A DNA stretch of 38,213 bases from Acidobacteria bacterium 13_1_20CM_58_21. Lineage in GTDB: Bacteria; Acidobacteriota; Terriglobia; Acidiferrales; UBA7541. Made by a program: the position numbers and the translations under genes. Positions 20,981-37,344 of this stretch are shown here, piece by piece (within the stretch, counting starts at the first letter, position 1; every line of letters starts with the position of its first letter). Under the pieces are notes generated by a model. The model was not told the origin of the DNA and did no database searches. It saw only the letters and a list, made by a program, of their open reading frames with translations. The stretch spans positions 1 through 38,213 of the forward strand of contig MNIJ01000107.1 in NCBI GenBank assembly GCA_001919715.1. The letters run 5' to 3'.

Positions 20981-22384
20981 TTATGCGGAACGGAAGATGA
21001 GCCAGAGGAATTCGGCGTTAAAAAAGAGGATGGCGGCGGCAACGAAGCAGGCGACCACGGTCGTCAGGCGAGAATTTGCGAATTCGCCCATCTTGGAGCG
21101 GCTGTTGGTGAACTGAATGAGGGGAATCACGGCGAAAGGCAACTGAAAACTGAGAATCACCTGACTGAGAATAAGCAGCGAGGTGACCTTGTTCTCACCA
21201 GCAAAACCAATCACCAAGGCGGCAGGAATGATGGCGATAGAGCGGGTGATGAGCCGGCGCAGCCAGGGCTTGAGCCGAATGTCAAGAAAGCCTTCCATCA
21301 CGATCTGTCCAGCCAGTGTGCCGGTGAGCGTGGAGTTCTGGCCAGAGGCGAGCAGCGCACAGGCAAAGAGCGTGCTGGCGAGGCTTGCTCCGAGGACGGG
21401 GCTGAGAAGTTTGTAGGCGTCGGCGATTTCGGCGACGTCGTGAAGGCCGCGGGTGTGGAAGGCAGCGGCGCCAAGAACGAGAATCGCGGCATTGATAAAA
21501 AGCGCAAAGCCGAGGGCGAGTGTGGAATCGAATATCGCGTAACGCACGGCTTCACGCCGGTCGCGTGTGGAGGAACCGAATGCTCGCGTTTGCACGATAC
21601 TGGAGTGTAGATAGAGATTGTGCGGCATTACGGTGGCACCAAGGATCCCGATGGCGATGTAGAGCATTTCACGGTTGCGGAGGATTTCGGCTCGAGGGAT
21701 GAAGCCGATGGCGGCCTCACGCCAGAGAGGGTGAGCGAAAAAAATTTCGTAACCGAAGCAAGCGGCGATCGAGGCGATGAGCGTGACGACAAATGCTTCG
21801 ACAAGTCGAAAGCCGCGCCCCTGAAGGGCCAAAACGATGAGAACGTCGAATGCGGTGATCAGAACACCCGCCAGCAGCGGCAGGCCGAAGAGAAGCTTCA
21901 GCGCGACGGCCGAGCCCAGGACCTCGGCAAGGTCACAGGCGGCGATAGCGATCTCGCAAACCACCCAGAGAAACAGACCGGCACGGCGAGAATAGTGTTC
22001 GCGGCACGCCTGGGCCAGGTCACGTCCGGTGGCAATCCCCAGCTTTGCAGAGAGGGCTTGCAGAAACATGGCCATCAGGTTGCTGATGAGGACGACACTG
22101 AGAAGCGTGTATCCGAACTTTGAGCCGCCGCCAATGTCCGTGGCCCAGTTTCCCGGGTCCATATAGCCGACAGCCACGAGATAGCCCGGGCCAGCAAAGG
22201 CCAGGACCTTACGGAACCACGAAGCACCGGAAGAAAAAGGGATGGTGCGATGAGATTCCGGCAAGGAAGGCAGAACAACTCGGTTACGCGTCGCCGATGC
22301 GGAGCAGAGACCGTCGGAAGTCTCCCCGGTGACCGGTGGATCGGTTTCGAGTTGCGGCGGAACCGTGCGTGCCATGTCTGACAT
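20981..22384 (-). CDS. mntH: Nramp-family divalent metal transporter
   Basis: 467 aa polytopic protein with Nramp hallmarks YMDPGNW (TM1) and GATVMPHNLYLHSSIVQTR (TM6). Confidence 0.93.
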   Translation of the reverse strand: MSDMARTVPPQLETDPPVTGETSDGLCSASATRNRVVLPSLPESHRTIPFSSGASWFRKVLAFAGPGYLVAVGYMDPGNWATDIGGGSKFGYTLLSVVLISNLMAMFLQALSAKLGIATGRDLAQACREHYSRRAGLFLWVVCEIAIAACDLAEVLGSAVALKLLFGLPLLAGVLITAFDVLIVLALQGRGFRLVEAFVVTLIASIAACFGYEIFFAHPLWREAAIGFIPRAEILRNREMLYIAIGILGATVMPHNLYLHSSIVQTRAFGSSTRDRREAVRYAIFDSTLALGFALFINAAILVLGAAAFHTRGLHDVAEIADAYKLLSPVLGASLASTLFACALLASGQNSTLTGTLAGQIVMEGFLDIRLKPWLRRLITRSIAIIPAALVIGFAGENKVTSLLILSQVILSFQLPFAVIPLIQFTNSRSKMGEFANSRLTTVVACFVAAAILFFNAEFLWLIFRSA

Positions 22385-24323: not shown

Positions 24324-24992
24324 ATGGCGAGCGTAGCTAGGCGGTTATCGGGACCGATTGTTTCCAATGAAGATTCGCGTAAGGTCTTCATCTCCGAGAT
24401 TCGCGAAATGGCCGACAGCCACTTCACGGCACTCTCCGACTCGGACCTTATCGAACACCTCAAGGGTGGCTCGCGCCAGGCACTGGGGATTCTTTTTCTT
24501 CGATACCGGCGTCTTGTCTTGACAGTTAGCCTGCGAATCTTGCGGAACAACGGCGAAGCGGAAGACGTTGTTCAAGATGTCTTCCTGGAAATTTGCAAGA
24601 AGGCGGCAGCTTTTGATTCCGGTCGCGGTAGCGTGAAGATGTGGATTTTGCAGTATGCTTACTCGCGAAGCCTGGATCGCAGAAGGTATCTTGCGCTTCG
24701 GCATGCTGACGGGCACGGGGCGAATGGCGGCGGGTACTGTACCAAGCATTCTTACGCTTACAATCCGCATGGGCCGGATGGGTTGACAGTGGAGGAGCGC
24801 GCCACTGCAATACGCAAGGCACTAACGAATCTGCCGACCAAGCAGAGAAAGGTACTTGAATTAGCGTATTTTCAGGGCCTGTTGATGACGGAAATCGCCG
24901 AATGTATGAGCGATAGCCTTGGGAATGTTCGAAATCAGTACTACAGGGGTCTCAAGAAGCTGCAGGATGCCTTAGGTGATTTTTCGGCGTGA
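24324..24992 (+). CDS. ECF-type RNA polymerase sigma factor
   Basis: Sigma region 2 (GILFLRYRRLVLTVSLRILRNNGEAEDVVQDVFLEI...KMWILQYAYSRSLDRRR) and region 4 (LTNLPTKQRKVLELAYFQGLLMTEIAECMSDSLGNVRNQYYRGLKKL). Confidence 0.93.
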   Translation: MASVARRLSGPIVSNEDSRKVFISEIREMADSHFTALSDSDLIEHLKGGSRQALGILFLRYRRLVLTVSLRILRNNGEAEDVVQDVFLEICKKAAAFDSGRGSVKMWILQYAYSRSLDRRRYLALRHADGHGANGGGYCTKHSYAYNPHGPDGLTVEERATAIRKALTNLPTKQRKVLELAYFQGLLMTEIAECMSDSLGNVRNQYYRGLKKLQDALGDFSA

Positions 24993-25005
24993 ATGGGATT
25001 TGACT

Positions 25006-26307
25006 ATGGAGAACCCCGGCACAGTTCACGAACGCTTTGGCGAGCTTTCCGCACTGGCGATCATTGGTCAGGCGTCGGCCGAGGAGTACCGTGATCTGAA
25101 AGCGCATTTGGAATTGTGCGCTGCCTGTCGCAAGGAGCATGATGCCCTTGCCCGAATCCTGCTGGCAGAACTCCCGCTGGCTCACGAGGAGAAAGATTCT
25201 AACCTTGAGCCCTGGGCCGCGGCGCGACAGACTGAGGCGAGCCGGCTGAATTCCATGAGTGGCAAAGTTTCTCTGCTCGACCACTCACTCAAACATGGAG
25301 ACCGGATCTTGAACCGCTGGCCGAGATTACGCGGAATGCAGTCGCCGTCTGTTTATGCATACGCGGCCATTTTTCTTTTGTTTGTCACGGCGGGGGCACT
25401 GACAATTCGCGTTGCGAACGAGTCGAAGCTCGACAGTGTACGCTCTGCGGAAGTTGCAAGCCTAGACGAAGAGATTGTTGGACTCCGAAAGCAGATTCAC
25501 GATCTGGATGAACGTACGAGCAATTCTCTTCCTGCTAGCCCAAGCATTCCAGCGATAACCAAAAGTGGCGAAACTACCAGCTCAGAGCCTAAACATTCTA
25601 GGCTGTTAACGCGCAATCTGGAACTCGAAACACAACTAAGAATCGCAACTGAAGAAATAGCAATCCTCAAGCAAGAGGCGCGTTCAGGAGTGGACCGCGA
25701 GCGCCAGCTCTCGGCAAGATTGTCCGAGACTCAGGACACGCTAGACAAGCTAACTACCGAGTCGAGAACTGTCCGTGAATCTCATTCGGAGGACACCTCT
25801 ATCATCGCAAAACAACAGAGCCAGTTGCTCGACATGGAAGAAAGGCTTGCCTCAGCCGCAAGTTCGATGGACCGCGACAGAACGCTTCTTGTTGCCGATC
25901 GCGATATTCGCGATCTGATGGGAGCACGCAACCTCAGAATCATCGATATCTTTGATGTGGACAGCAAAGGAAGAACCCGCAAGCCTTTTGGCCGTGTCTT
26001 CTTCACGGAAGGGAAATCACTGATCTTCTACGCTTTCGATTTGGCGAATGAGCAAGCCGGTTTGCAATCTGCGGCGTACCAGGCGTGGGGTTCTGAAGGT
26101 TCATTTGAGCATGGCGTCCGCAGCTTGGGAATTTTCTATCGCGACGATCAAAAGGCAAATCGCTGGGTACTCAAATTCGACGACCCCGATGTTTTGGCGG
26201 AAATCGATTCGGTATTCGTTACCACTGAACCGGCTGGCGGCAGCAAGAAACCGACGGGTGGCAGACTCCTCGCAGCCTTCGTCAAGGCTAACCTCAATCA
26301 TCCATAA
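25006..26307 (+). CDS. Anti-sigma factor, zinc-finger + single TM + coiled coil + RskA-like C-terminal domain
   Basis: HLELCAACRKEHDAL (HxxxCxxC), TM VYAYAAIFLLFVTAGALTI, C-terminal DSVFVTTEPAGGSKKPTGG as in RskA-type anti-sigma domains; directly downstream of the sigma factor. Confidence 0.85.
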   Translation: MENPGTVHERFGELSALAIIGQASAEEYRDLKAHLELCAACRKEHDALARILLAELPLAHEEKDSNLEPWAAARQTEASRLNSMSGKVSLLDHSLKHGDRILNRWPRLRGMQSPSVYAYAAIFLLFVTAGALTIRVANESKLDSVRSAEVASLDEEIVGLRKQIHDLDERTSNSLPASPSIPAITKSGETTSSEPKHSRLLTRNLELETQLRIATEEIAILKQEARSGVDRERQLSARLSETQDTLDKLTTESRTVRESHSEDTSIIAKQQSQLLDMEERLASAASSMDRDRTLLVADRDIRDLMGARNLRIIDIFDVDSKGRTRKPFGRVFFTEGKSLIFYAFDLANEQAGLQSAAYQAWGSEGSFEHGVRSLGIFYRDDQKANRWVLKFDDPDVLAEIDSVFVTTEPAGGSKKPTGGRLLAAFVKANLNHP

Positions 26308-26521
26308 TTCTCTTCCGGGGGTGCGTTCTTTCGGTTGGCGATCACTCTCACCCCTCGGGACAACTCTCTCGGCACTGCGAAGGCAGCCATAGAACTGACT
26401 CTAGATTGTTGAACATAAATAACCTATCTTTTCTTTACGATGGTACTAAATTCTTGCAGTTTGCCCAGGTAACTTCGTTTGGCCGGGGCGGAAACCCATC
26501 TGCAACAAATTTTTCATCTCG

Positions 26522-26560
26522 CTGATACAAAACGCGGCAGCCGTACGGAAACTGTATCAG
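26522..26560. promoter_or_regulatory. 8-bp inverted repeat (CTGATACA ... TGTATCAG) in the leader of the TonB-dependent receptor gene
   Basis: Perfect arms 26522-26529 and 26553-26560, 23-nt spacer containing the nested palindrome CGGCAGCCG; ends 37 bp before the ATG at 26597. Confidence 0.5.
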
Positions 26561-26596
26561 ATTGGGGCTCATATCAAACCAAGCGAGGTTCAGCCA

Positions 26597-29500
26597 ATGA
26601 AACGGGTGGGGATTGGTGTCCTTAGTTGTCTCGCCGTGCTGCTTTTCCTGTACGCTAGCACCGCACGGCCAGATGAACTGGCAACCGTGACAGGCTACGT
26701 CACTGACCCGGGCGGTCTCCGAATTGCCGGCGCGAAGGTCCAGGCGACGAACGTCGAAACTAATGTCTCCTTCTTTGGCGAATCAAACGGTGAAGGACTC
26801 TTCCGAATTGGAGGGCTTCCTGTCGGATCTTACCGTATCGTCATACAAAAGACAGGATTCAAAACAACCGTTAAGCAGGGACTGGAACTGCACGTTCAGG
26901 ATATTGTGGCCCTCAATTTCCAGTTGGAAATCGGCTCTGTCGCAGAAAGCGTAACAGTTGCTGCGGAAGTGTCTCTGGTGAACACGGAGTCTGCCGCGGT
27001 GAGCACAGTAGTGGACCACGAGTTCGTCGAAAATCTTCCCATTAACGGCAGAGGTTTTCAGACTCTCATTGCACTGTCACCGGGAGTTGTGTTGACACCC
27101 GCAAATCAAACGGACTCCGGACAATTTAGCGTTAACGGTCAGCGCTCGAGCACGAATTACTTCACGGTAGACGGCGTGAGTGCGAACGTCGGTGTACAGC
27201 CTACGCCCTATCTCTCTCAGACGGCAGGTGGTTCGACGCCCGGCTTCAGCGTTACGGGGGGCACAAACAACCTTGTTTCCGAGGACGCCCTGCAAGAGTT
27301 TCGGATTCAGACTTCTACGTTTGCGCCCGAGTTCGGGAGGACTCCGGGCGCGCAGGTTTCCATCGTGACCCGCTCCGGCACCAATCAGTTCCATGGCGCA
27401 GTGTTCGAATTCTTGCGGAACGACAAACTGGATGCGAATGACTGGTTTGCAGACCGAGAAAAGCTGGCGAAAGCTGAAGAGAGAATCAATGACTTCGGAG
27501 GGGTGTTCGGCGGCCCGATCGTAGGAAACCGAACATTTTTCTTCTTCTCCTACGAAGGACAACGACTGCGCTTGCCACAGACAGTGCTGTCCACTGTGCC
27601 TTCCATCCGATTGCGCAATGATCCGAATACGTCTGCCGGGGTTTTGCCCTTTCTCAACTTGTATCCGCTCCCTCTTTCCGCTACTCCCGAAAATACGGAT
27701 TCGAGCGGAAATCAAACGGGGCAAACGCCTTTCAGCGCCAGTTTTTCCAATCAATACACCTTGAATGCAACGAGCTTTCGGCTCGACCACAGACTGAACG
27801 ACCGACTGATCCTTTTCGGCCGCTACAACTACGCGCCGACGGAAGCACACGAGCGAGGCCTAGGCGCACTGAGCAATTTGCAGAATACTCGCGTTGATGC
27901 GGAAACACTGACCATGGGCCTGACATGGACTCCGACGGTAGTTACCAGCAACGAGTTTCGATTCAATTACAGCCGGGTTAAGGCCAATAATTCCAGCAGG
28001 ATGGATAATTTCGGGGGCGCGGTTCCCCCGCAAGACTCCATTTTGTTTCCATCGCCTTTTAGCAGCACAGACTCGACGACTGGATTTGCCATTTTTGACA
28101 TGCAGAATGGAGGCTGGAGCACTGGCAAGGGCGCAAACAACCTTCAGAGACAGTTCAACATTGTTGATAGTTTTTCTTTCCAGAAAGGATCGCATGCGCT
28201 CAAATTTGGAGGTGATTACCGACGGCTGACCCCAAAGTATGATCCGTTTTCCTATGAGCTGGTGCCCGTGTTCCTAGGTTTAAATGATCTTGTTTCGGAA
28301 AACCCCTTCGAGGTTATCTTGGAAGCAAACACCGGAGCCACAGTTCTATTTCGCAATTTGGGACTGTTTGCGCAAGACACTTGGAAAGTCATGCCGCGGC
28401 TCACTCTGACTTACGGACTGCGCTGGGACGCGGACTTCGCGCCAAAGGCGCTGAATGGGCCTCCACTCGCCGCAGTAACCGGATTCAATGATCTAAGCAC
28501 CATGTCTTTGGCACCCGCGGGCACACCGATTTTTGCCACTACTTACGGTAACGTCGCCCCACGAATCGGCGCGGCATTCCAGCTGCGACAAAGCCAGAAT
28601 TGGGAGACGGTCCTTCGCGCAGGTTTTGGCTTTTTTTATGATCTCGCCACGGCGCAGGCTGGGGATCTCCTGCAGTTTGGCAATTATCCCTATGGGGCGA
28701 ACGAAACCCTATGCAGCTTTTGTCCGTCTCCAGCTCCCAGTTTTCCCTTCAACTTCTCGGACCCTGCTCTGCGACCACCACCGATCAACGTTGCATCCCT
28801 TCAGAATGGAGCCCTTGGGGCCTTTGATCCAAATCTGAAGTTACCGCGAATTTATCAATGGAATTTGAGCGTCGGGCAGTCCCTCGGCGCCAAGCAGGCG
28901 TTAACGGCATCGTATATCGGCGCGGTTGGGCGGCGTCTTATCCAGGAAGAACTCGATTTTGCGAACGGGAATCCTATTCTTGGATTCGTTCAGTTGGCGC
29001 GCAACGCGGCTACGTCGGACTACCATTCCCTGCAGCTTCAATTTCAGCGTCAAATGTCGAAGGGAGTCCAGGTTCTAGCCTCGTATACTTTTTCTCATTC
29101 CATTGACACGGCCTCCAGCGGGTCCACTGGTGGGAATACCAATCTCTTTGTCAGAGGCGACGATCCAAACATCAACCGGGGTGCTTCGGACTTCGATATC
29201 CGACACAGTTTTTCCGGCGCTCTGGCTTACTCCATTCCTGTGCCACGAAATAAGGGGTTAATGCGTGCGGCTCTCGGCCACTGGTCAATAGATAATATTG
29301 TGCAAGCACGGTCGGCGCCGCCAGTCTTTGTCCTGGATACTAATGTTTTTAGAACTGACGGAAATTCCGCCGTTCTCCGTCCCAATCTTGTTCCGGGACA
29401 GCCACTGTATCTCTACGGGCCCCAATATCCAGGCGGAAAGTCGTTCAACCGCGCGGCGTTGACCGATCCGGGAACCGACGCGAGTGGAAACCAGCTCCAG

Positions 29501-29809
29501 GGGACACTGGGACGAAACGTGTTCAGGGGATTCGGGGCTTGGCAGTGGGACTTTGCCGTCCGCCGGGAATTCCACATCCATGGGAAAGAATCTACTCGGC
29601 TGCAATTCCGGTCCGAATTCTTCAATATTCTGAACCATCCCAATTTTTCCGCGCCTGTGGGTGACCTAGCGAGTCCCAACTTCGGAGTGTCCACGCAGGT
29701 ATTGTCCAGAGGCCTGGGGGGAAGCTCCGCAGGGGCTGGCGGATTCAATTCGGTGTTCCAATTGGGTGGACCCCGTTCGATTCAATTTGCTTTGAAGCTG
29801 CTTTTTTAG
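26597..29809 (+). CDS. TonB-dependent receptor with N-terminal carboxypeptidase-regulatory-like domain (Oar-like)
   Basis: 1070 aa; signal peptide, ATVTGYVTDPGGLRIAGAKVQATNVETN, plug region (LPINGRGFQTLIALSPGV, FSVNGQRSSTNYFTVDGVSAN), barrel C-terminus ending in aromatic Phe. Confidence 0.92.
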   Translation: MKRVGIGVLSCLAVLLFLYASTARPDELATVTGYVTDPGGLRIAGAKVQATNVETNVSFFGESNGEGLFRIGGLPVGSYRIVIQKTGFKTTVKQGLELHVQDIVALNFQLEIGSVAESVTVAAEVSLVNTESAAVSTVVDHEFVENLPINGRGFQTLIALSPGVVLTPANQTDSGQFSVNGQRSSTNYFTVDGVSANVGVQPTPYLSQTAGGSTPGFSVTGGTNNLVSEDALQEFRIQTSTFAPEFGRTPGAQVSIVTRSGTNQFHGAVFEFLRNDKLDANDWFADREKLAKAEERINDFGGVFGGPIVGNRTFFFFSYEGQRLRLPQTVLSTVPSIRLRNDPNTSAGVLPFLNLYPLPLSATPENTDSSGNQTGQTPFSASFSNQYTLNATSFRLDHRLNDRLILFGRYNYAPTEAHERGLGALSNLQNTRVDAETLTMGLTWTPTVVTSNEFRFNYSRVKANNSSRMDNFGGAVPPQDSILFPSPFSSTDSTTGFAIFDMQNGGWSTGKGANNLQRQFNIVDSFSFQKGSHALKFGGDYRRLTPKYDPFSYELVPVFLGLNDLVSENPFEVILEANTGATVLFRNLGLFAQDTWKVMPRLTLTYGLRWDADFAPKALNGPPLAAVTGFNDLSTMSLAPAGTPIFATTYGNVAPRIGAAFQLRQSQNWETVLRAGFGFFYDLATAQAGDLLQFGNYPYGANETLCSFCPSPAPSFPFNFSDPALRPPPINVASLQNGALGAFDPNLKLPRIYQWNLSVGQSLGAKQALTASYIGAVGRRLIQEELDFANGNPILGFVQLARNAATSDYHSLQLQFQRQMSKGVQVLASYTFSHSIDTASSGSTGGNTNLFVRGDDPNINRGASDFDIRHSFSGALAYSIPVPRNKGLMRAALGHWSIDNIVQARSAPPVFVLDTNVFRTDGNSAVLRPNLVPGQPLYLYGPQYPGGKSFNRAALTDPGTDASGNQLQGTLGRNVFRGFGAWQWDFAVRREFHIHGKESTRLQFRSEFFNILNHPNFSAPVGDLASPNFGVSTQVLSRGLGGSSAGAGGFNSVFQLGGPRSIQFALKLLF

Positions 29810-29883
29810 TTGGCTTCAATTGCAGAATGTTCCTCTCGGCTCCACGGGGAGAAGTTTTCAAGAATGCAAGGCGGAGGAATCCG

Positions 29884-32097
29884 ATGGGCGTTCTACAGAA
29901 CTTGCTTGTGCGTCATGCCTCGGCTACCTGCGCTGCTGTGCTGCTATTTGTGCTCTTCCCGTTTCTTGCACGCGCGCAGAGTCAGCATCTTGTAACGCTG
30001 GATGATTTGACTTCACAGATGAAATTCGTCGGCCAATATTTGGAGCTTTCACCCGACGATGAGACTCTGGCCTACAGCATTGAGAACGACGACAGTCTCT
30101 GGCTACTGAACGTCAAGGCACGAACTTCCCGTACTTTAGGCCAGGGATTCCTGCCACGCTGGTCTCCGGATGGCACCAAGCTTGCATTTTATTCGACGCG
30201 CAGCGGGACACTCCAATTGTGGATTCTAGACCTGAAGACAGACACATCGACCCAACTGACTAATCTTGAAGGTGGCATTGATCCCAATCCCGTGGCCGGA
30301 TTGAGCGGCTCGGATGAAGATCCGCTTCGATATTGTTGGTCGCCTGATGGCACAAGAATGGTTTTTGCGTCTCGAATGCATGCGCGTGGAAATGAGAGCA
30401 CCCGAATTTCACCGTCCAACGGGGACGGCAAAACAAGTCCAGCCACAGATCTTCAGCATCAGCCGGAGGGCACTCCTATCGTACTGACTAAGACAACGCC
30501 TCCGGAATGGACGGACAGCGGCCTTTTTCGCTATGGGGAATATCAGACTGCCTTATCTGCTAGAGGACCTGGATCAGGTACCGAGGCGGACTCATCGGGA
30601 AAGTTTCTGGCAAGGCAGGCCACCCAACTCTTTACAGTGAATATCGTGGACAAGCGCATGCAACAGCTGACCAACGATGATCGCGGGTATTTCACGCCTG
30701 ACTGGGCACCTGACGGGACTAAAATCGTGTTTATGTCGAGCGAGGGGAGGCCGATTACGGGTTACGGACCCGATACCACGAATCTTTACGTCATGCAACT
30801 TGCGGACCGCAAGGAGACGCTCCTGACGTCGGGTGTGGGCCAGAAAAGGCTGCCCTCTTATTCTCCGGATGGAAAATGGATTTCCTATTTGGGCTGCCAA
30901 CAGTTCGAGCAGGCCGCTGCTTATGTGGTATCAAGCACTGGCGGCACGCCTATAAGTGTTACCGAGCAATTGGACCGAAACGTTCGCGTTGGCCCTTATT
31001 GGTCGCCGGACAGCCATGCCCTTTTCGTTTCGTATCAAGACGGGGTTTCTATTTTGATCGGGCGAGTTTCCACTGCTGATGGAAAACTGCAACGTTTGTT
31101 CGACGACCACGCGTTCCGTGCTCCGTTTACTGTCTCTCGCGCGGGGAGCCTGATATGGGTGCAAGCGGATGGAACAAGTAGCGAGGTGATTTACAGGGCA
31201 GACTCGGAAGGCCGTAATACGGGTGAGTTGCTGGATTTGAACCCGAAAATCCGGGAATGGGCGCTTGGGAAGCAAGAAGTAGTGACTTGGAAGAACGGTC
31301 GCGGAGACGAACTTGAAGGAATTCTGATCAAGCCCGTGGGCTATCAGCAAGGAAAGTCCTATCCGCTGATTGTGGATCCCTATCCGGGCTTGGCGAACGG
31401 CTTCATGGGCGGTGCGATGAGCGGCAACCAAGCTTTCGCGTCGCGCGGGTACGCGGTTTTCTTCGCTCGCGAGCGGACCGCGCACACTTGGGAAAACCCG
31501 ACTCACGGAGACGCGTTTAATAAGGCCACGCGCGGGCCGCAAGGCGCGGACATCATGATGGATGATTTGATGAGCGGCATTGACGCGGTCGTAAAAATGG
31601 GCGTGGCCGATCCGAACAGGATGTGCCTCTATGGCTTCAGCAATGGAGGCGGCGCGACGAATTTGATCGTGACGAGGACTTCGAGGTTCAAGTGCGCGGT
31701 TTCGGCTTCAGGCGTAATGCCGGATTGGACGACTGCTTTCTTTCTTATTGACCCAGGCACTTTTGTGAAGCTCATCGGCGGCGTAGCGCCATGGGAAGAC
31801 CCGGGAGCGTACATCAAATTGTCGCCCGTCTATCATTTGGACAAGGTAACGACGCCCATGCTTCTGGCCGCCGGAGACAAAGAGACTTCGGGGGCTTTCA
31901 TGGCCCTGGAAATGTACACAGGCCTGCGCTACTTGGGCCGCGAGGTCACCTTCCTGCGGTACCCTAATCAGGGGCATGGCTTTGAAGGAGCGGCGCTAAA
32001 GGACTACTGGAAGCGCGCGAATACATTCTTTGACTTCTACCTCCATCCGGAGCCGCCCTCAATAGAGAGAACACCCGTGGCAACACTGAAGCGATAA
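29884..32097 (+). CDS. Secreted S9-family (prolyl oligopeptidase-like) peptidase; candidate lasso isopeptidase
   Basis: Signal peptide MGVLQNLLVRHASATCAAVLLFVLFPFLARAQ, beta-propeller WSPDGT repeats, GFSNGGGA (catalytic Ser), NQGHGF (catalytic His). Start taken at ATG 29884 with a GGAGGA ribosome-binding site. Confidence 0.88.
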   Translation: MGVLQNLLVRHASATCAAVLLFVLFPFLARAQSQHLVTLDDLTSQMKFVGQYLELSPDDETLAYSIENDDSLWLLNVKARTSRTLGQGFLPRWSPDGTKLAFYSTRSGTLQLWILDLKTDTSTQLTNLEGGIDPNPVAGLSGSDEDPLRYCWSPDGTRMVFASRMHARGNESTRISPSNGDGKTSPATDLQHQPEGTPIVLTKTTPPEWTDSGLFRYGEYQTALSARGPGSGTEADSSGKFLARQATQLFTVNIVDKRMQQLTNDDRGYFTPDWAPDGTKIVFMSSEGRPITGYGPDTTNLYVMQLADRKETLLTSGVGQKRLPSYSPDGKWISYLGCQQFEQAAAYVVSSTGGTPISVTEQLDRNVRVGPYWSPDSHALFVSYQDGVSILIGRVSTADGKLQRLFDDHAFRAPFTVSRAGSLIWVQADGTSSEVIYRADSEGRNTGELLDLNPKIREWALGKQEVVTWKNGRGDELEGILIKPVGYQQGKSYPLIVDPYPGLANGFMGGAMSGNQAFASRGYAVFFARERTAHTWENPTHGDAFNKATRGPQGADIMMDDLMSGIDAVVKMGVADPNRMCLYGFSNGGGATNLIVTRTSRFKCAVSASGVMPDWTTAFFLIDPGTFVKLIGGVAPWEDPGAYIKLSPVYHLDKVTTPMLLAAGDKETSGAFMALEMYTGLRYLGREVTFLRYPNQGHGFEGAALKDYWKRANTFFDFYLHPEPPSIERTPVATLKR

Positions 32098-32197: not shown

Positions 32198-32332
32198 TTA
32201 GTCGTCGAGTTCGCAATCCGCAACCAGGGCTTTTCCGAGGGGTACACCGGGATCGTGAAGACTGTGTTTCGATCCTTCGATGACTTTCGTGGCTTCACCG
32301 AGGATTGCGAGTTCAGGTTTTTGGTAGCGCAT
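32198..32332 (-). CDS. Candidate lasso-peptide precursor 1 (44 aa)
   Basis: MRYQKPELAILGEATKVIEGSKHSLHDPGVPLGKALVADCELDD; leader YxxPxLxxxG; proposed core from Gly20 with Asp at core position 8. Start at ATG 32332. Confidence 0.78.
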   Translation of the reverse strand: MRYQKPELAILGEATKVIEGSKHSLHDPGVPLGKALVADCELDD

Positions 32333-32366
32333 GACTTGGGTTTCACCTTTCTCTGAATTAACCCGC

Positions 32367-32391
32367 CCCGGCGTGCCGGTAGCACGCCGGG
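32367..32391 (-). promoter_or_regulatory. Strong intergenic stem-loop between the two precursor genes
   Basis: Minus strand CCCGGCGTGC-TACCG-GCACGCCGGG, perfect 10-bp stem, 5-nt loop; no T-tract follows. Confidence 0.75.
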
Positions 32392-32413
32392 AGCAGGTTG
32401 TCTTGCTCACTGC

Positions 32414-32557
32414 CTAGCTGTCGAGTTCAGAGTCGGTGGAGACAAGCAGGTTCTTGATGAACGATGGTTGTCCCGGCTCCTGCGCTTGCTGCTTGTGTCC
32501 CAGAATGACGCTGGTGGCGTCGCCCAGAACGGCAACTTCAGGTTTCACGTAGCTCAT
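32414..32557 (-). CDS. Candidate lasso-peptide precursor 2 (47 aa)
   Basis: MSYVKPEVAVLGDATSVILGHKQQAQEPGQPSFIKNLLVSTDSELDS; homologous to precursor 1; AAAGGAGGTGAAAATC ribosome-binding site before ATG 32557; Gly20 with Glu at core position 8. Confidence 0.8.
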   Translation of the reverse strand: MSYVKPEVAVLGDATSVILGHKQQAQEPGQPSFIKNLLVSTDSELDS

Positions 32558-32640
32558 GATTTTCACCTCCTTTCGTTTCCAGCGGCCCGTCAATTCGCGC
32601 GCGAAATGATCGGGTCGGCAGGAACTCAATTAAATCCATC

Positions 32641-32662
32641 ACCTTCGCCGAAGGTATTTTTT
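32641..32662 (+). terminator. Candidate intrinsic terminator on the plus strand
   Basis: ACCTTC-GCC-GAAGGT hairpin followed by ATTTTTT. Confidence 0.45.
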
Positions 32663-32688
32663 GCTTACGTGATGCCCTTCGGAGAGAG

Positions 32689-34599
32689 TTAAGCTGGAGA
32701 GTGAGCCAAATTCATTTTTGGCTCCGTGGCTTCCAGGGGCGGGGAAGTAACCAATTCGCTGCGAGCCATGTCTCGCAGCCAAAACTCCAGAGTCATGGCG
32801 CGCATGAAATCGACGAAGTCAATGGACATGTTGCCCGACTTCATTTCTTCTAAGGCCTTGCGATACTTAGCAGGATTGACGTAACCGCGTCTGCCGATCA
32901 TTGGAGAGGCGAAGACGTTCTGCAGCATGTTCCAATTTTTTTCAATGAGAACAATGTGGCAGCGTGCCGCGCCTGCCTTTGTTTTTCTCAGGCGGACCTC
33001 ACTTGGAAGGATGTTCGCCAGAGCACGGCGCATCAGGGAGCGGCGTTCGCCCGGTCTAAGAAACTGATCTTGTGGAACGGAAGTCAGGAAGTCGACCAAA
33101 TCCCGGTCAAGGTACGGGTAGGTCATTTCCAAAATGGAAGGACGGTGTTCTCCCATCTGGCGCGCCAAAGTCGCGAGAGTGATATCCCAGTCTTGCATGC
33201 TGGGAAGTCTGAACCAGCGCTTTTGGATTCCCCCCAGCTTGCGTTCAGCCATGCGGTACTGACGGACAAATTTCGGGTCGAACCAAGGCTCTGGCCGCGC
33301 ATGTTTGGTCATCTTTGACTGCAGAGAGATCGGAAAAAAGAGTCTGCAAGTTTGCAGGAATAAGTGAATCCAAGGCCTCTTCATGTACAGGCTCCATGCC
33401 TTCAATTGCTTTGCAAATTCTCCGAGTCGAAACTGTGCGATAAGATCGCCCATCATGACGCGCGGATCTGAAGCCATGCCGTTGATCTCATCTCCGCCGG
33501 TACCAGAGAGCCCAACGCGGTATCCACCTTCGCGAAACATTTGTTCTTGGGCCGTCTTCATATCGTCGGGCCGGTCAGGAAGTGGAATGGGAGCAAAACG
33601 TGGATATTCGAGACAGTAGGGCGCGTCGAATTTGCTTGTGTCAAGATGTAGCCCTTTTCTGCCGCGCTTCTCTTCGATCTTCGTGAGGTAAAAGAAATCG
33701 TCGCCGGCGGGTTCGTTGATGTCGTAATAAGAGAAAGTGTCTAGTCGGGGAGTCCGCAGCCCTTCCTTTTGAAGAATGCCATCGGCCACGCACACGATTG
33801 ATGAGGAGTCCAATCCGCCGCTCAGTTCGGCCAATATTGGACAGTCCGACCGCAGTCGCCGGCGAATCGCCTGCTGAAAGAGGTAGAGATAGTGATGTTC
33901 GTAGTCTGCATCGCTCTTATACTTGATAAGTTTTTGGGGTTCGAATTTCCAATAAGGATGGGCCGTCACGCGGCCTTGATGAATTTTAACGTAGCTTCCT
34001 GGAGGAACGGCACGAACTTCCCGGTAGGGTGTGAGGTCCGCGTCCGGATGAGCGATGAGAAAGCCAGCGATGTATTCGTCGTCCACGGTAAATTGGATGC
34101 CCGAAAGCAGGACGATCGCAGAGAGCTCAGTACACCACATCACGCTCTCGCGAGTGCCGTAGTAGTAGAGATTTCGAACCGCCGAATAGTCCCGGGCCAG
34201 GAAAACAGACTTCTCGGCTGGATCCCAGACGGTCAGCGCCCAGTCTCCTATCAATTTCTTGAAACTCCGTGTTCCCCACTTCTCGAAGGCTGCGGCGACA
34301 ATTTCCAAGTCCGTTCGATCCGCTCGCATTAGCAGGCCAAGTTCAGAGATTAGCTGGCCGCGATTGTCCAGACGGCCATCCCACATCATCAGTTTTCCGT
34401 GTCCGAAAGTGTGTGGCTGACTTTCGAGCCGCGACTCCGGAGTGGTGTGAAATGGCCGGTAAAGGAAACCGATGGAACCGTGGACCTCCCTCTGGTTTCC
34501 GTCCGGTCCACGCTCCGCAAGAATGGCGCTCATCCGATCCAGAAACTCCGTATCGACGGGGCGACCGTCTAAGCACCACACTCCGGCTTGCACGCTCAT
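32689..34599 (-). CDS. Asparagine-synthetase-like lasso-peptide cyclase (C protein)
   Basis: SGGLDSSSIVCVADG PP-loop ATP-pyrophosphatase motif; glutaminase-like N-terminus lacking the Cys2 nucleophile (MSVQAGVWCLDGR); GAAGGAG ribosome-binding site before ATG 34599. Confidence 0.88.
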   Translation of the reverse strand: MSVQAGVWCLDGRPVDTEFLDRMSAILAERGPDGNQREVHGSIGFLYRPFHTTPESRLESQPHTFGHGKLMMWDGRLDNRGQLISELGLLMRADRTDLEIVAAAFEKWGTRSFKKLIGDWALTVWDPAEKSVFLARDYSAVRNLYYYGTRESVMWCTELSAIVLLSGIQFTVDDEYIAGFLIAHPDADLTPYREVRAVPPGSYVKIHQGRVTAHPYWKFEPQKLIKYKSDADYEHHYLYLFQQAIRRRLRSDCPILAELSGGLDSSSIVCVADGILQKEGLRTPRLDTFSYYDINEPAGDDFFYLTKIEEKRGRKGLHLDTSKFDAPYCLEYPRFAPIPLPDRPDDMKTAQEQMFREGGYRVGLSGTGGDEINGMASDPRVMMGDLIAQFRLGEFAKQLKAWSLYMKRPWIHLFLQTCRLFFPISLQSKMTKHARPEPWFDPKFVRQYRMAERKLGGIQKRWFRLPSMQDWDITLATLARQMGEHRPSILEMTYPYLDRDLVDFLTSVPQDQFLRPGERRSLMRRALANILPSEVRLRKTKAGAARCHIVLIEKNWNMLQNVFASPMIGRRGYVNPAKYRKALEEMKSGNMSIDFVDFMRAMTLEFWLRDMARSELVTSPPLEATEPKMNLAHSPA

Positions 34600-34612
34600 C
34601 GTGATCGCTCCT

Positions 34613-34990
34613 TCAGCATTTTTCCCAGACGCCATACTTCAACTGCACGTCACTATTTGTTTCGTTGACCGGTCGTCCGTCTACTTCTACCCACGCATGT
34701 GCTCTGAATGGGTACTTCTGAGCACCCAAAATCATTCGTGCGGGCACGCCCTGATTTCTAAGCAGGCAAGTGGTCACAGCCGCGCGCTGTAGACACATGA
34801 CGCGTTTCGGATACCACATCAGGGCATGGTTGACAGCATTGCACACGCGCTGAACGGTTTCCGCTCCCACTTCGCTGCGCCGCACAGGCCAGTCGCGGAC
34901 AATCCTATGTACTCCCGAAAATTTCTGGCGAGGTAAAAACACGTCGTACGCAAGCAGGCCAAGGAATGATTTCCAGAACATTATGGTCAT
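34613..34990 (-). CDS. Lasso-peptide biosynthesis B2-type protein (transglutaminase-like leader peptidase)
   Basis: RVMCLQRAAVTTCLLRNQGVPARMILGAQKYPFRAHAWVEVDGRPVNE: Cys and His of the Cys-His-Asp triad in the characteristic B2 context; 9 nt from the upstream stop. Confidence 0.9.
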   Translation of the reverse strand: MTIMFWKSFLGLLAYDVFLPRQKFSGVHRIVRDWPVRRSEVGAETVQRVCNAVNHALMWYPKRVMCLQRAAVTTCLLRNQGVPARMILGAQKYPFRAHAWVEVDGRPVNETNSDVQLKYGVWEKC

Positions 34991-34999
34991 CGTAGTTCC

Positions 35000-37084
35000 C
35001 TAAATAGTTAATCCTAGCTCGTGACAAATAAAAGAGAGCCTGTCGGTCAGGGCGGCGGCGCGCAGATCCAATGACTGGCCCGGCCAGTGGCCCCAATCCT
35101 GTTTGTAATCGAGGAGAATGGGACGCCCGGAAGTAGTCGCTGCCTGGAGCCGCGCAGTCATCTTTCTGACATGCATCGGATTACAACGATGATCGGCGTC
35201 TCCCGAAATCAACATCACCGCGGGATAAGCGGTCCCGTCTTGCACGCGGTGGTAAGGAGAGTAAGCCTTCAAAGCTTTGAAGTCGTCCTCCTTATCTGAA
35301 GAGCCGTATTCCTCCACAAACCATGCGGCAAGATCGAACTTGTGATACCGCAACATGTCCAGCAAAGGGCCGAGGCAAAGAACCGCACGAAATAGGTCCG
35401 GTCGCTGCGTCAGAGCTGCGGCAACGAGCAGACCGGCGTTCGAGCCTCCACCAATAGCCAGTTTCGCCGGTGCGGTATAACCTTTTGTCACAAGCCATTC
35501 AGCTGCGGCGACAAAATCGTCGATGGCATTTTGTCGTTTGTGCCTTTTGCCGGCTAAGTGCCACTTCGCTCCTAATTCCGATCCACCGCGCAGGTTCGCT
35601 ACAGCAAACAGAAAACCATTCTCGATGAGAAATGCCGCGTAAACGGCAAACCGTGGCACGATGGACGCTCCAAATCCTCCGTAACCGGTTAGAAAAGTCG
35701 GTCTCGGTGACGAAGCACGATATCCCCTACGACCCACCAAGGAGATCGGAATCTCGGTGCCATCTTTCGAAGGATAGGTGGCTTGTGTTACCTCGATCGC
35801 CGATGAATCAAAAGGAATGTTGCCTCGAGCCCAAATTGTCGATTTTCGCGTGGAAGCGTTGTAAGCGTGAGTTTCAGGCGGCTTTGCATAGGACGTTAGT
35901 TGGTAGAAAAGCGTGTCGTCCGAAGGCCACCAAGATAGCAAATCCACGGTACTTTCATCTGGACAAGCAAGGCAACCCTGTCTTCGACCCGCTAGGTTAA
36001 AGATATCAATTCGGGTTCTGCAATTCTCGATGTAGCTGATAAAAAGGAGTTCGCCCGCGATCGCCAAATCGTAGATGCGATGTTCAGACTCGGGGACTAT
36101 TTCTCGCCAGCCCTCTCGAGTTGGCTTTTCCAAAGAGATTTCCAACACCCGAAAGTTGGGTGCTTTCCAATCGGTCAGCGCGAAAAGCCGATGCCCAACA
36201 CAATAGAGGTTAAAATGTCCTTCGAGTTGCATCGCAATCGGGCGTGGCGGCTTGCTATCGGGCAGATCATGGACGTAAATGTCAGTGAGGCGGGGGCCTT
36301 GCAAAGAGCTCACAAGGTAGACCAGTGCGCGCTCCCCCGCCCGAAACATTGTCAAACGCCGATTCTCGCCATCTTCGATAACGAAAAGTTCTGCGTCCTG
36401 GTCCAGCGCGGTTCCTAACAAGTGCCGGCAAACGGATTGCCTTGACGAACGAGCCTTCTCAATACTTGAGTGCGAATAGTAAAATCCTGTTCGGTCCGGA
36501 CAGAAAATAAGTCCGAAACACAATCCATGCGGCAATCGATCAGACAAAACCGTTCCTGTTTCCACATCCATGAATTCCACCGCATAAGCATCTTCGCCGC
36601 CATGGCGGACGCTGTAGGCCATTAATTTCGCGTCATCAGAAATGGCAAGTAGGTTGACGCTCGTCGTGGTGCCCGCTTGTCTCTCGGCGGGATCTACTAA
36701 GCAAATGTCTTCGCTTGAGACAGAATCGTCCCGTCGCATCATGATGACCGGTTGCTGCTGATGCGCTGCCCTTTTCAGAAAGAAGTAGCAACCACCAACT
36801 TTCCACGGTTCGGAGATGAATTCGACATCTAACAGTTCTTTGATTCGTTGCCCGATCCGGTTCCGGCTTGGAATGGCATCGAGGATTTCACGAGCGTATG
36901 AGGTTTGTTCCTTGAGCCAGGTCCGCGTTCGCGGCGAATTCTGGTCTTCCAGCCACCGATAGGGATCTGTGATGCCGACACCATGCAACACTTCAGTGAC
37001 GGGTTCAACAGGGGTCTCTGGTGGTGGAGTTACTGTTAGCGTCACGCGTTTATACCTTGCACCAAATAACTTTTCGTTGATCAA
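35000..37084 (-). CDS. Prolyl oligopeptidase (S9A-like), first gene of the lasso operon
   Basis: ITDPYRWLEDQNSPRTRTWLKEQ N-terminus, GYGGFGASIVPRF, ANLRGGSELGAKWHLAG, GGGSNAGLL (Ser), SGDADHRCNPMHVRK (Asp), DWGHWPG (His); no obvious signal peptide. Confidence 0.93.
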   Translation of the reverse strand: MINEKLFGARYKRVTLTVTPPPETPVEPVTEVLHGVGITDPYRWLEDQNSPRTRTWLKEQTSYAREILDAIPSRNRIGQRIKELLDVEFISEPWKVGGCYFFLKRAAHQQQPVIMMRRDDSVSSEDICLVDPAERQAGTTTSVNLLAISDDAKLMAYSVRHGGEDAYAVEFMDVETGTVLSDRLPHGLCFGLIFCPDRTGFYYSHSSIEKARSSRQSVCRHLLGTALDQDAELFVIEDGENRRLTMFRAGERALVYLVSSLQGPRLTDIYVHDLPDSKPPRPIAMQLEGHFNLYCVGHRLFALTDWKAPNFRVLEISLEKPTREGWREIVPESEHRIYDLAIAGELLFISYIENCRTRIDIFNLAGRRQGCLACPDESTVDLLSWWPSDDTLFYQLTSYAKPPETHAYNASTRKSTIWARGNIPFDSSAIEVTQATYPSKDGTEIPISLVGRRGYRASSPRPTFLTGYGGFGASIVPRFAVYAAFLIENGFLFAVANLRGGSELGAKWHLAGKRHKRQNAIDDFVAAAEWLVTKGYTAPAKLAIGGGSNAGLLVAAALTQRPDLFRAVLCLGPLLDMLRYHKFDLAAWFVEEYGSSDKEDDFKALKAYSPYHRVQDGTAYPAVMLISGDADHRCNPMHVRKMTARLQAATTSGRPILLDYKQDWGHWPGQSLDLRAAALTDRLSFICHELGLTI

Positions 37085-37305: not shown

Positions 37306-37344
37306 AGTTAGCCTATCCGGCCAAAGAGTTAGTCTATCCGGCCA
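37306..37344. repeat. Two-copy direct repeat AGTTAG(C/T)CTATCCGGCCA with 21-bp period
   Basis: 37306-37323 agttagcctatccggcca and 37327-37344 agttagtctatccggcca, one mismatch. Confidence 0.85.

Follow-up and report, generated by a model that had tools for sequence, protein, structure and literature searches.

We analysed a 38,213-bp stretch of DNA from Acidobacteria bacterium 13_1_20CM_58_21 (the window; genome G000), which is the whole of contig C66 in a 63%-complete genome of 3.86 Mb and 239 contigs. Its minus strand carries a lasso peptide operon (32198-37084) with two precursors, the cyclase C, the protease B2 and a prolyl oligopeptidase (POP). On the plus strand an arm of four genes (24324-32097) for an extracytoplasmic function (ECF) sigma factor, a membrane anti-sigma factor, an outer-membrane receptor and an S9 hydrolase converges on this operon, with 100 bp between the stop codons of the S9 gene and the nearest precursor. 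An earlier sequence-only reading had placed the four arm genes correctly, and the lasso operon that it saw facing them is real. Gene content and order across related genomes strongly suggest that the receptor arm and the lasso operon are one conserved functional system. Known isopeptidase-type clusters encode an S9 enzyme that converts their own threaded peptide to the linear form, next to a TonB receptor, a sigma factor and an anti-sigma factor (PMC9266682). The purpose of such peptides, for which the producer encodes both synthesis and subsequent opening, has been called enigmatic (PMC9266682).

The pairing of arm and operon was assessed at about 60 loci taken from a cyclase search over 399 Terriglobia genomes and annotated with models built from those loci. 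Within the cyclase clade of the window a convergent S9 gene was present in 44 of 45 loci whose flank on the precursor side is 3 kb or longer. The receptor was found in 40 of the 41 loci with at least 6 kb and the anti-sigma gene in 21 of the 23 with at least 8.5 kb; the counts include the window and a few near-duplicate loci. The arrangement was repeated in dozens of loci at cyclase identities as low as 29%. In a scan of named public genomes every Terriglobia locus with enough flank had the arm, while it was found at none of 69 further cyclase loci, among them loci of Cyanobacteria, Nitrospira, Proteobacteria and other Acidobacteriota. The contrast between the S9 and receptor counts of the clade and these outgroup loci rules out a chance neighbourhood and bears out the proposal of the sequence-only reading that arm and operon are one unit. 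Two loci depart from the pattern. L123 (G708) has a complete flank with no arm beside the cyclase, and a receptor and S9 arm lies on another contig of this genome (L150); L116 (G561) is a second cyclase locus without an arm, and its cyclase gene is broken. Further signs of decay were the truncation of an S9 gene at another place in G561 (L162) and internal stops in the S9 genes of G233 (L154) and G627 (L158).

We consider it somewhat probable that the two gene groups form a circuit in which the peptide is made, exported, re-imported and opened, with the sigma factor controlling uptake rather than synthesis. The minus-strand operon would make a lasso peptide with an eight-residue ring, which the plus-strand arm would sense and recover. 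The threaded peptide, perhaps loaded with a cargo, would enter the periplasm through the Oar-like, TonB-type receptor and there be opened or cleaved by the S9 hydrolase. The membrane anti-sigma factor would hold the sigma factor until a signal arrives; the freed sigma factor would then turn on the transcription unit of receptor and S9 gene and leave the biosynthetic operon unaffected.

Control of the receptor arm

The sigma factor (24324-24992, plus strand; Sigma70_r2 and r4_2 by Pfam) and the anti-sigma factor (24976-26307, plus strand) are 85% and 78% identical, respectively, to those of L085, the closest relative of the window. The anti-sigma factor matched RskA_C exactly at the cut-off of 29.4 bits, has a single membrane helix (residues 126-144) and carries the N-terminal zinc-type motif HLELCAAC (HxxxCxxC). 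The only Pfam domain of the anti-sigma factor was RskA_C, not FecR, and those of the receptor were CarboxypepD_reg and OMP_b-brl_4, with no STN or FecA-type domain. Thus, FecR-type surface signalling was ruled out, a signal would have to take another route to the anti-sigma factor, and the earlier assignment of an RskA-like rather than FecR-like protein was correct.

A two-box element, TGRTACA-N17-CCGTAGA, preceded the receptor gene in 12 of 40 loci with at most one mismatch, compared to 0.15 expected from shuffled sequences. A shared sigma promoter before the sigma gene or the lasso operon was rejected, as there was no excess over shuffles. Because the motif had been discovered and counted on one locus set, a separate test was conducted in 12 whole genomes. 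Seven of them contained the exact pattern TGATACA-N14-18-CCGTAGA, one of these at two sites and the other six at a single site; of the eight sites, seven lay between the anti-sigma and receptor genes, including that of G370, a genome with the arm alone (see below). The reversed control pattern gave two matches in total. Since a recognisable sigma-type promoter stands before the receptor and not before the biosynthesis genes, uptake is probably under the control of the sigma factor, and synthesis under that of another regulator. A candidate operator for the latter is a pair of 18-bp direct repeats, TGGCCGGATAGRCTAACT, 21 bp apart and upstream of the operon (37306-37344, minus strand). The repeats are conserved in L085 and were found only before the lasso operon in G000 and in G614.

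The S9 enzyme in the isopeptidase slot

Most loci, including L085, have an enzyme like AtxE2 or SpI-IsoP in the S9 slot. A profile of 38 locus S9 proteins, in which the residues corresponding to S605 and H717 of the window enzyme are invariant, was searched against solved structures in the PDB and matched AtxE2 with 316 bits and SpI-IsoP with 217 bits, followed by one match at 201 and the rest at no more than 132 bits. The S9 protein of L112 reached 400.2 bits on NF033523, whose curated cut-off for the AtxE2 family is 400, and by itself matched AtxE2 at 202 bits. When the L085 enzyme was modelled in the same way as that of the window, its top fold matches were SpI-IsoP and AtxE2.

The S9 gene of the window (29827-32097, plus strand) probably starts at the ATG at 29884. 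It encodes a secreted hydrolase with a hydrophobic, signal-like N-terminus and the triad S605/D684/H717, in a lineage distinct from AtxE2. It scored 174 bits on NF033523, below the cut-off, and 105 on the DPP5 model. As a control, generic acidobacterial S9 enzymes also reached about 200 on NF033523 but scored higher on DPP5; a score near 200 is thus not diagnostic by itself. In a tree of catalytic domains the window enzyme grouped with those of L090, L142 and L158 in a separate, well-supported clade. The generic controls, the tree and two fold searches ruled out that it is an AtxE2 isopeptidase. A third S9 lineage occupies the slot in L099, L100, L102, L108 and L109. Distances between S9 proteins correlated only weakly with those between the cyclases (r = 0.22), compared to 0.87 for B2 and 0.46 for the receptor. 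Three lineages together with this weak correlation indicate that the slot is retained while its occupant is exchanged. Judged by its sequence and predicted structure, the window enzyme is best described as a replacement of an AtxE2-branch enzyme by another S9 lineage. The earlier analogy to S9 isopeptidases hence applies to most loci but not to the window's own enzyme.

Several findings weigh against the proposed circuit. By phmmer the S9 carboxypeptidase 8wt1 was closer to the window enzyme than AtxE2 (124 versus 74 bits), and 8wt1 also ranked first among the matches of its predicted structure (mean predicted local distance difference test score, pLDDT, 77), with SpI-IsoP in place 16; in addition, the WFxFWL...QYxRW tail of AtxE2-like enzymes is absent from it. 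The putative receptor promoter of the window (26523-26566, plus strand) and that of L085 keep the GCTGATACAAA block, but the -10 box is not at the spacing usual in the other loci. A Pfam scan of the receptor detected no plug domain, and among solved structures it has no informative relative. No gene for B1 (PqqD) was found in the window; because the contig ends at 38213 and the genome is 63% complete, the upstream side of the operon is cut off, and the three PqqD genes of G000 are all on other contigs. Finally, the peptide, its uptake and the opening of its ring are all predicted from gene content.

The S9 findings raise the alternative that the window enzyme does not open the ring and is a recruited carboxypeptidase-like S9 protein that trims the acidic tail of the peptide or degrades linear peptide in the periplasm, the rest of the arm acting as proposed. 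The nearest fold and sequence, the separate clade and the conserved acidic tail at the precursor ends would all agree with such a role. On the other hand, the enzyme sits in the exact slot that AtxE2-like enzymes occupy in sister loci, including L085 with its closely similar sigma factor, and unlike generic S9 enzymes it scores higher on NF033523 than on DPP5. We therefore regard this alternative as rather doubtful, and suppose that in the make-and-recover circuit the displaced enzyme of the window may do the same job as its AtxE2-like counterparts.

Receiver-only genomes and the role of the peptide

The receptor (26597-29809, plus strand) has 1070 amino acids and a signal-like N-terminus. CarboxypepD_reg (59.9 bits) and the outer-membrane barrel OMP_b-brl_4 (502 bits) were both found, in agreement with its description as Oar-like in the sequence-only reading. 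A conserved motif, SExVTV, resembles a TonB box. When scored per residue with a hidden Markov model of the lasso-locus receptors, lasso-type receptors gave at least 0.99 bits and other Oars at most about 0.55, which marks the former as a discrete clade. The model was trained on lasso loci, with receptors of receiver-only genomes outside the training set.

High-scoring pairs of receptor and S9 gene without a lasso cyclase were present in G370 (one contig), G139 (nine contigs) and G701, and genome searches found neither a cyclase of this clade nor a B2 gene in these three. G564 has two tandem arms; its receiver-only status and that of G505 are weakened by a B2 gene elsewhere in each. A search for lasso precursors beside the receiver-only arms gave a single pattern match, an unlikely reading frame in L132. 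Near the arm of G370 lies a phage-type integrase (L132:17133-18191), a hint that the arm may have been transferred horizontally.

Because the arm occurs without the operon in several genomes, uptake appears to be valuable without production. The earlier reading had named independent segregation of arm and operon as the observation that would speak against their link. Production without the arm was almost never seen, which upholds the link, but some near-complete genomes have the arm without the operon. This asymmetry is expected if the arm acts on peptides made by others; alternatively, production may have been lost. The earlier notion of a closed circuit therefore fits the pairing of arm and operon, but neither the solitary arms of G370, G139 and G701 nor a promoter that stands only before the receptor. 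As a possible extension, we tentatively suggest that in soil the lasso peptides of this clade serve as extracellular signals or common goods. Producers would export them, take them up again through a dedicated receptor and open them. Relatives in which production was lost or never arose would keep only the receiver arm, as with foreign siderophores, and a sigma factor with essentially one target promoter would make this a dedicated circuit for sensing and taking up the peptide.

It is unlikely that the peptide is an antibacterial weapon with the receptor as its entry door, and with the S9 enzyme and the sigma/anti-sigma pair serving self-protection and a stress response. Some lasso peptides do enter cells via TonB-type receptors, any peptide that came back in would be inactivated by an opening enzyme, and an ATP-binding cassette (ABC) exporter is encoded at 10 of the 37 loci with enough upstream flank. 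Yet the receiver-only genomes retain receptor and enzyme, which would be costly if the receptor merely admitted a toxin, and known isopeptidase-type lasso peptides are mostly without antimicrobial activity (PMC9266682). We give hardly any credence to an ordinary acidobacterial module for an unrelated nutrient that lies beside the lasso genes by accident: elsewhere in the class, sets of sigma factor, RskA-type anti-sigma factor and Oar are indeed found with no lasso genes, but their Oars are those of the low-scoring group and mostly lack an S9 gene, and the convergent pairing is near-universal within the cyclase clade and absent outside it.

The sigma gene is preceded, at a distance of about 2 kb, by an MntH-type Nramp transporter gene (20981-22384, minus strand). 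The other lasso loci that were searched gave no Nramp gene, so this neighbour is not conserved and a metal link through it was rejected. No finding connects the system to metals, the scavenging of which the earlier reading had considered.

The loci provide a large natural series in another phylum, with dozens of cases of the same logic, some of them in workable isolates (Edaphobacter aggregans DSM 19364, Silvibacterium bohemicum S15 and strain AB60). The receiver-only genomes separate uptake from production, and the predicted promoter is near-single-target. Taken together, loci, isolates, receiver-only genomes and promoter make the purpose of lasso peptides testable by deletion, feeding and reporter experiments.

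Biosynthetic genes and related clusters

The two precursors of the window, A2 (MRYQKPELAILGEATKVIEGSKHSLHD...ELDD; 32198-32332, minus strand) and A1 (MSYVKPEVAVLGDATSVILGHKQQAQE...ELDS; 32414-32557, minus strand, with the ribosome-binding site AGGAGG upstream), both have a leader of the YxxPxxxxxG type, here YxKPExxxLG, and an acidic residue at ring position 7 to 9. The predicted rings are GSKHSLHD (G1-D8) in A2 and GHKQQAQE (G1-E8) in A1. Acidic C-terminal tails are common to the precursors of the clade (L065-L160; window 32198-32557), with the variants AYEADE, GYADWE and ELDD. Because the first screen had required an acidic tail, tail statistics were taken from precursors found by the leader motif alone: residue -2 was acidic in 25 of 25 and residue -1 in 23 of 25, with conservation fading by position -8. 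Thus, a hypervariable core lies between a conserved leader and a conserved tail. In L117, L119 and L123 a nine-residue ring would put Phe, Asn or Leu instead of Gly at core position 1.

Cyclase C (32689-34635, minus strand) is asparagine-synthetase-like; it has an Asn_synthase domain, belongs to a conserved cyclase clade and matched NF033535 best, with 321 bits at a cut-off of 525. The leader peptidase B2 (34613-34990, minus strand; Transglut_core3) passed NF033537 with 76 bits at a cut-off of 33. The POP (35000-37084, minus strand; S9A, PF02897 and PF00326) has prolyl endopeptidases as its nearest solved chains, with 420 bits for 2bkl. Many tails in the clade read PAYEADE, and removal of the tail by POP after Pro is a possibility. 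POP also lies within the operons of L065, L079, L085-L087, L096-L099, L105, L113, L114 and L120. Upstream regions of the operon in other loci contain the PqqD protein B1, which is present in the operons of most relatives, along with an APH-fold kinase and, in some loci, an ABC transporter. The kinase-like protein has about 457 amino acids and is encoded between B1 and POP or B2 in most relatives (e.g. L076:10411-11784 and L098:13374-15026); the subclade of the window lacks the gene.

Many acidobacterial lasso clusters have been counted previously (PMC8692599). We found no description of the convergent arm of acidobacterial lasso isopeptidase loci in the open-access literature, subscription papers being outside the search. 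The loci of astexin-2/3 and sphingopyxin I from alpha-Proteobacteria, which encode AtxE2 and SpI-IsoP, likewise have genes for an S9 enzyme, a TonB receptor, a sigma factor and an anti-sigma factor opposite the lasso operon (PMC9266682), and these two isopeptidases are the nearest solved relatives of most S9 proteins examined here. The acidobacterial loci differ by an RskA/zinc-type instead of a FecR anti-sigma factor, an Oar-like receptor without STN domain, split B1 and B2, an operon-borne POP, often an APH-fold kinase and the conserved acidic precursor tail; the S9 enzyme of the window is, moreover, of another lineage. No conserved GntR gene was noticed here, although no systematic search for GntR was made. 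In the rubrinodin cluster an ABC transporter gene accompanies those for an isopeptidase, a TonB receptor and a sigma/anti-sigma pair (PMC9266682), and several of our loci have both features too. The rubrinodin regulators are FecI/FecR-like, whereas the loci with both features here belong to another phylum and have RskA-like regulation. With FecI/FecR/FecA signalling the loci share an ECF sigma factor, a membrane anti-sigma factor and an outer-membrane receptor encoded together, but no FecR or STN domain was detected here. 'Group II' lasso clusters from soil metagenomes also have split B1 and B2 and a POP between core genes (PMC12670498); the portion of that paper covered neither describes a convergent receptor arm nor mentions Acidobacteria. 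New here are the receptor promoter, nearly unique per genome in seven relatives, the conserved acidic precursor tail and the receiver-only genomes.

Loci with GYADWE-tailed precursors (L095, L100-L104 and L106) have two tandem cyclase genes. In several of them PqqD domains are found at the edge of longer reading frames, and L101 also encodes a Glyco_transf_8 protein.

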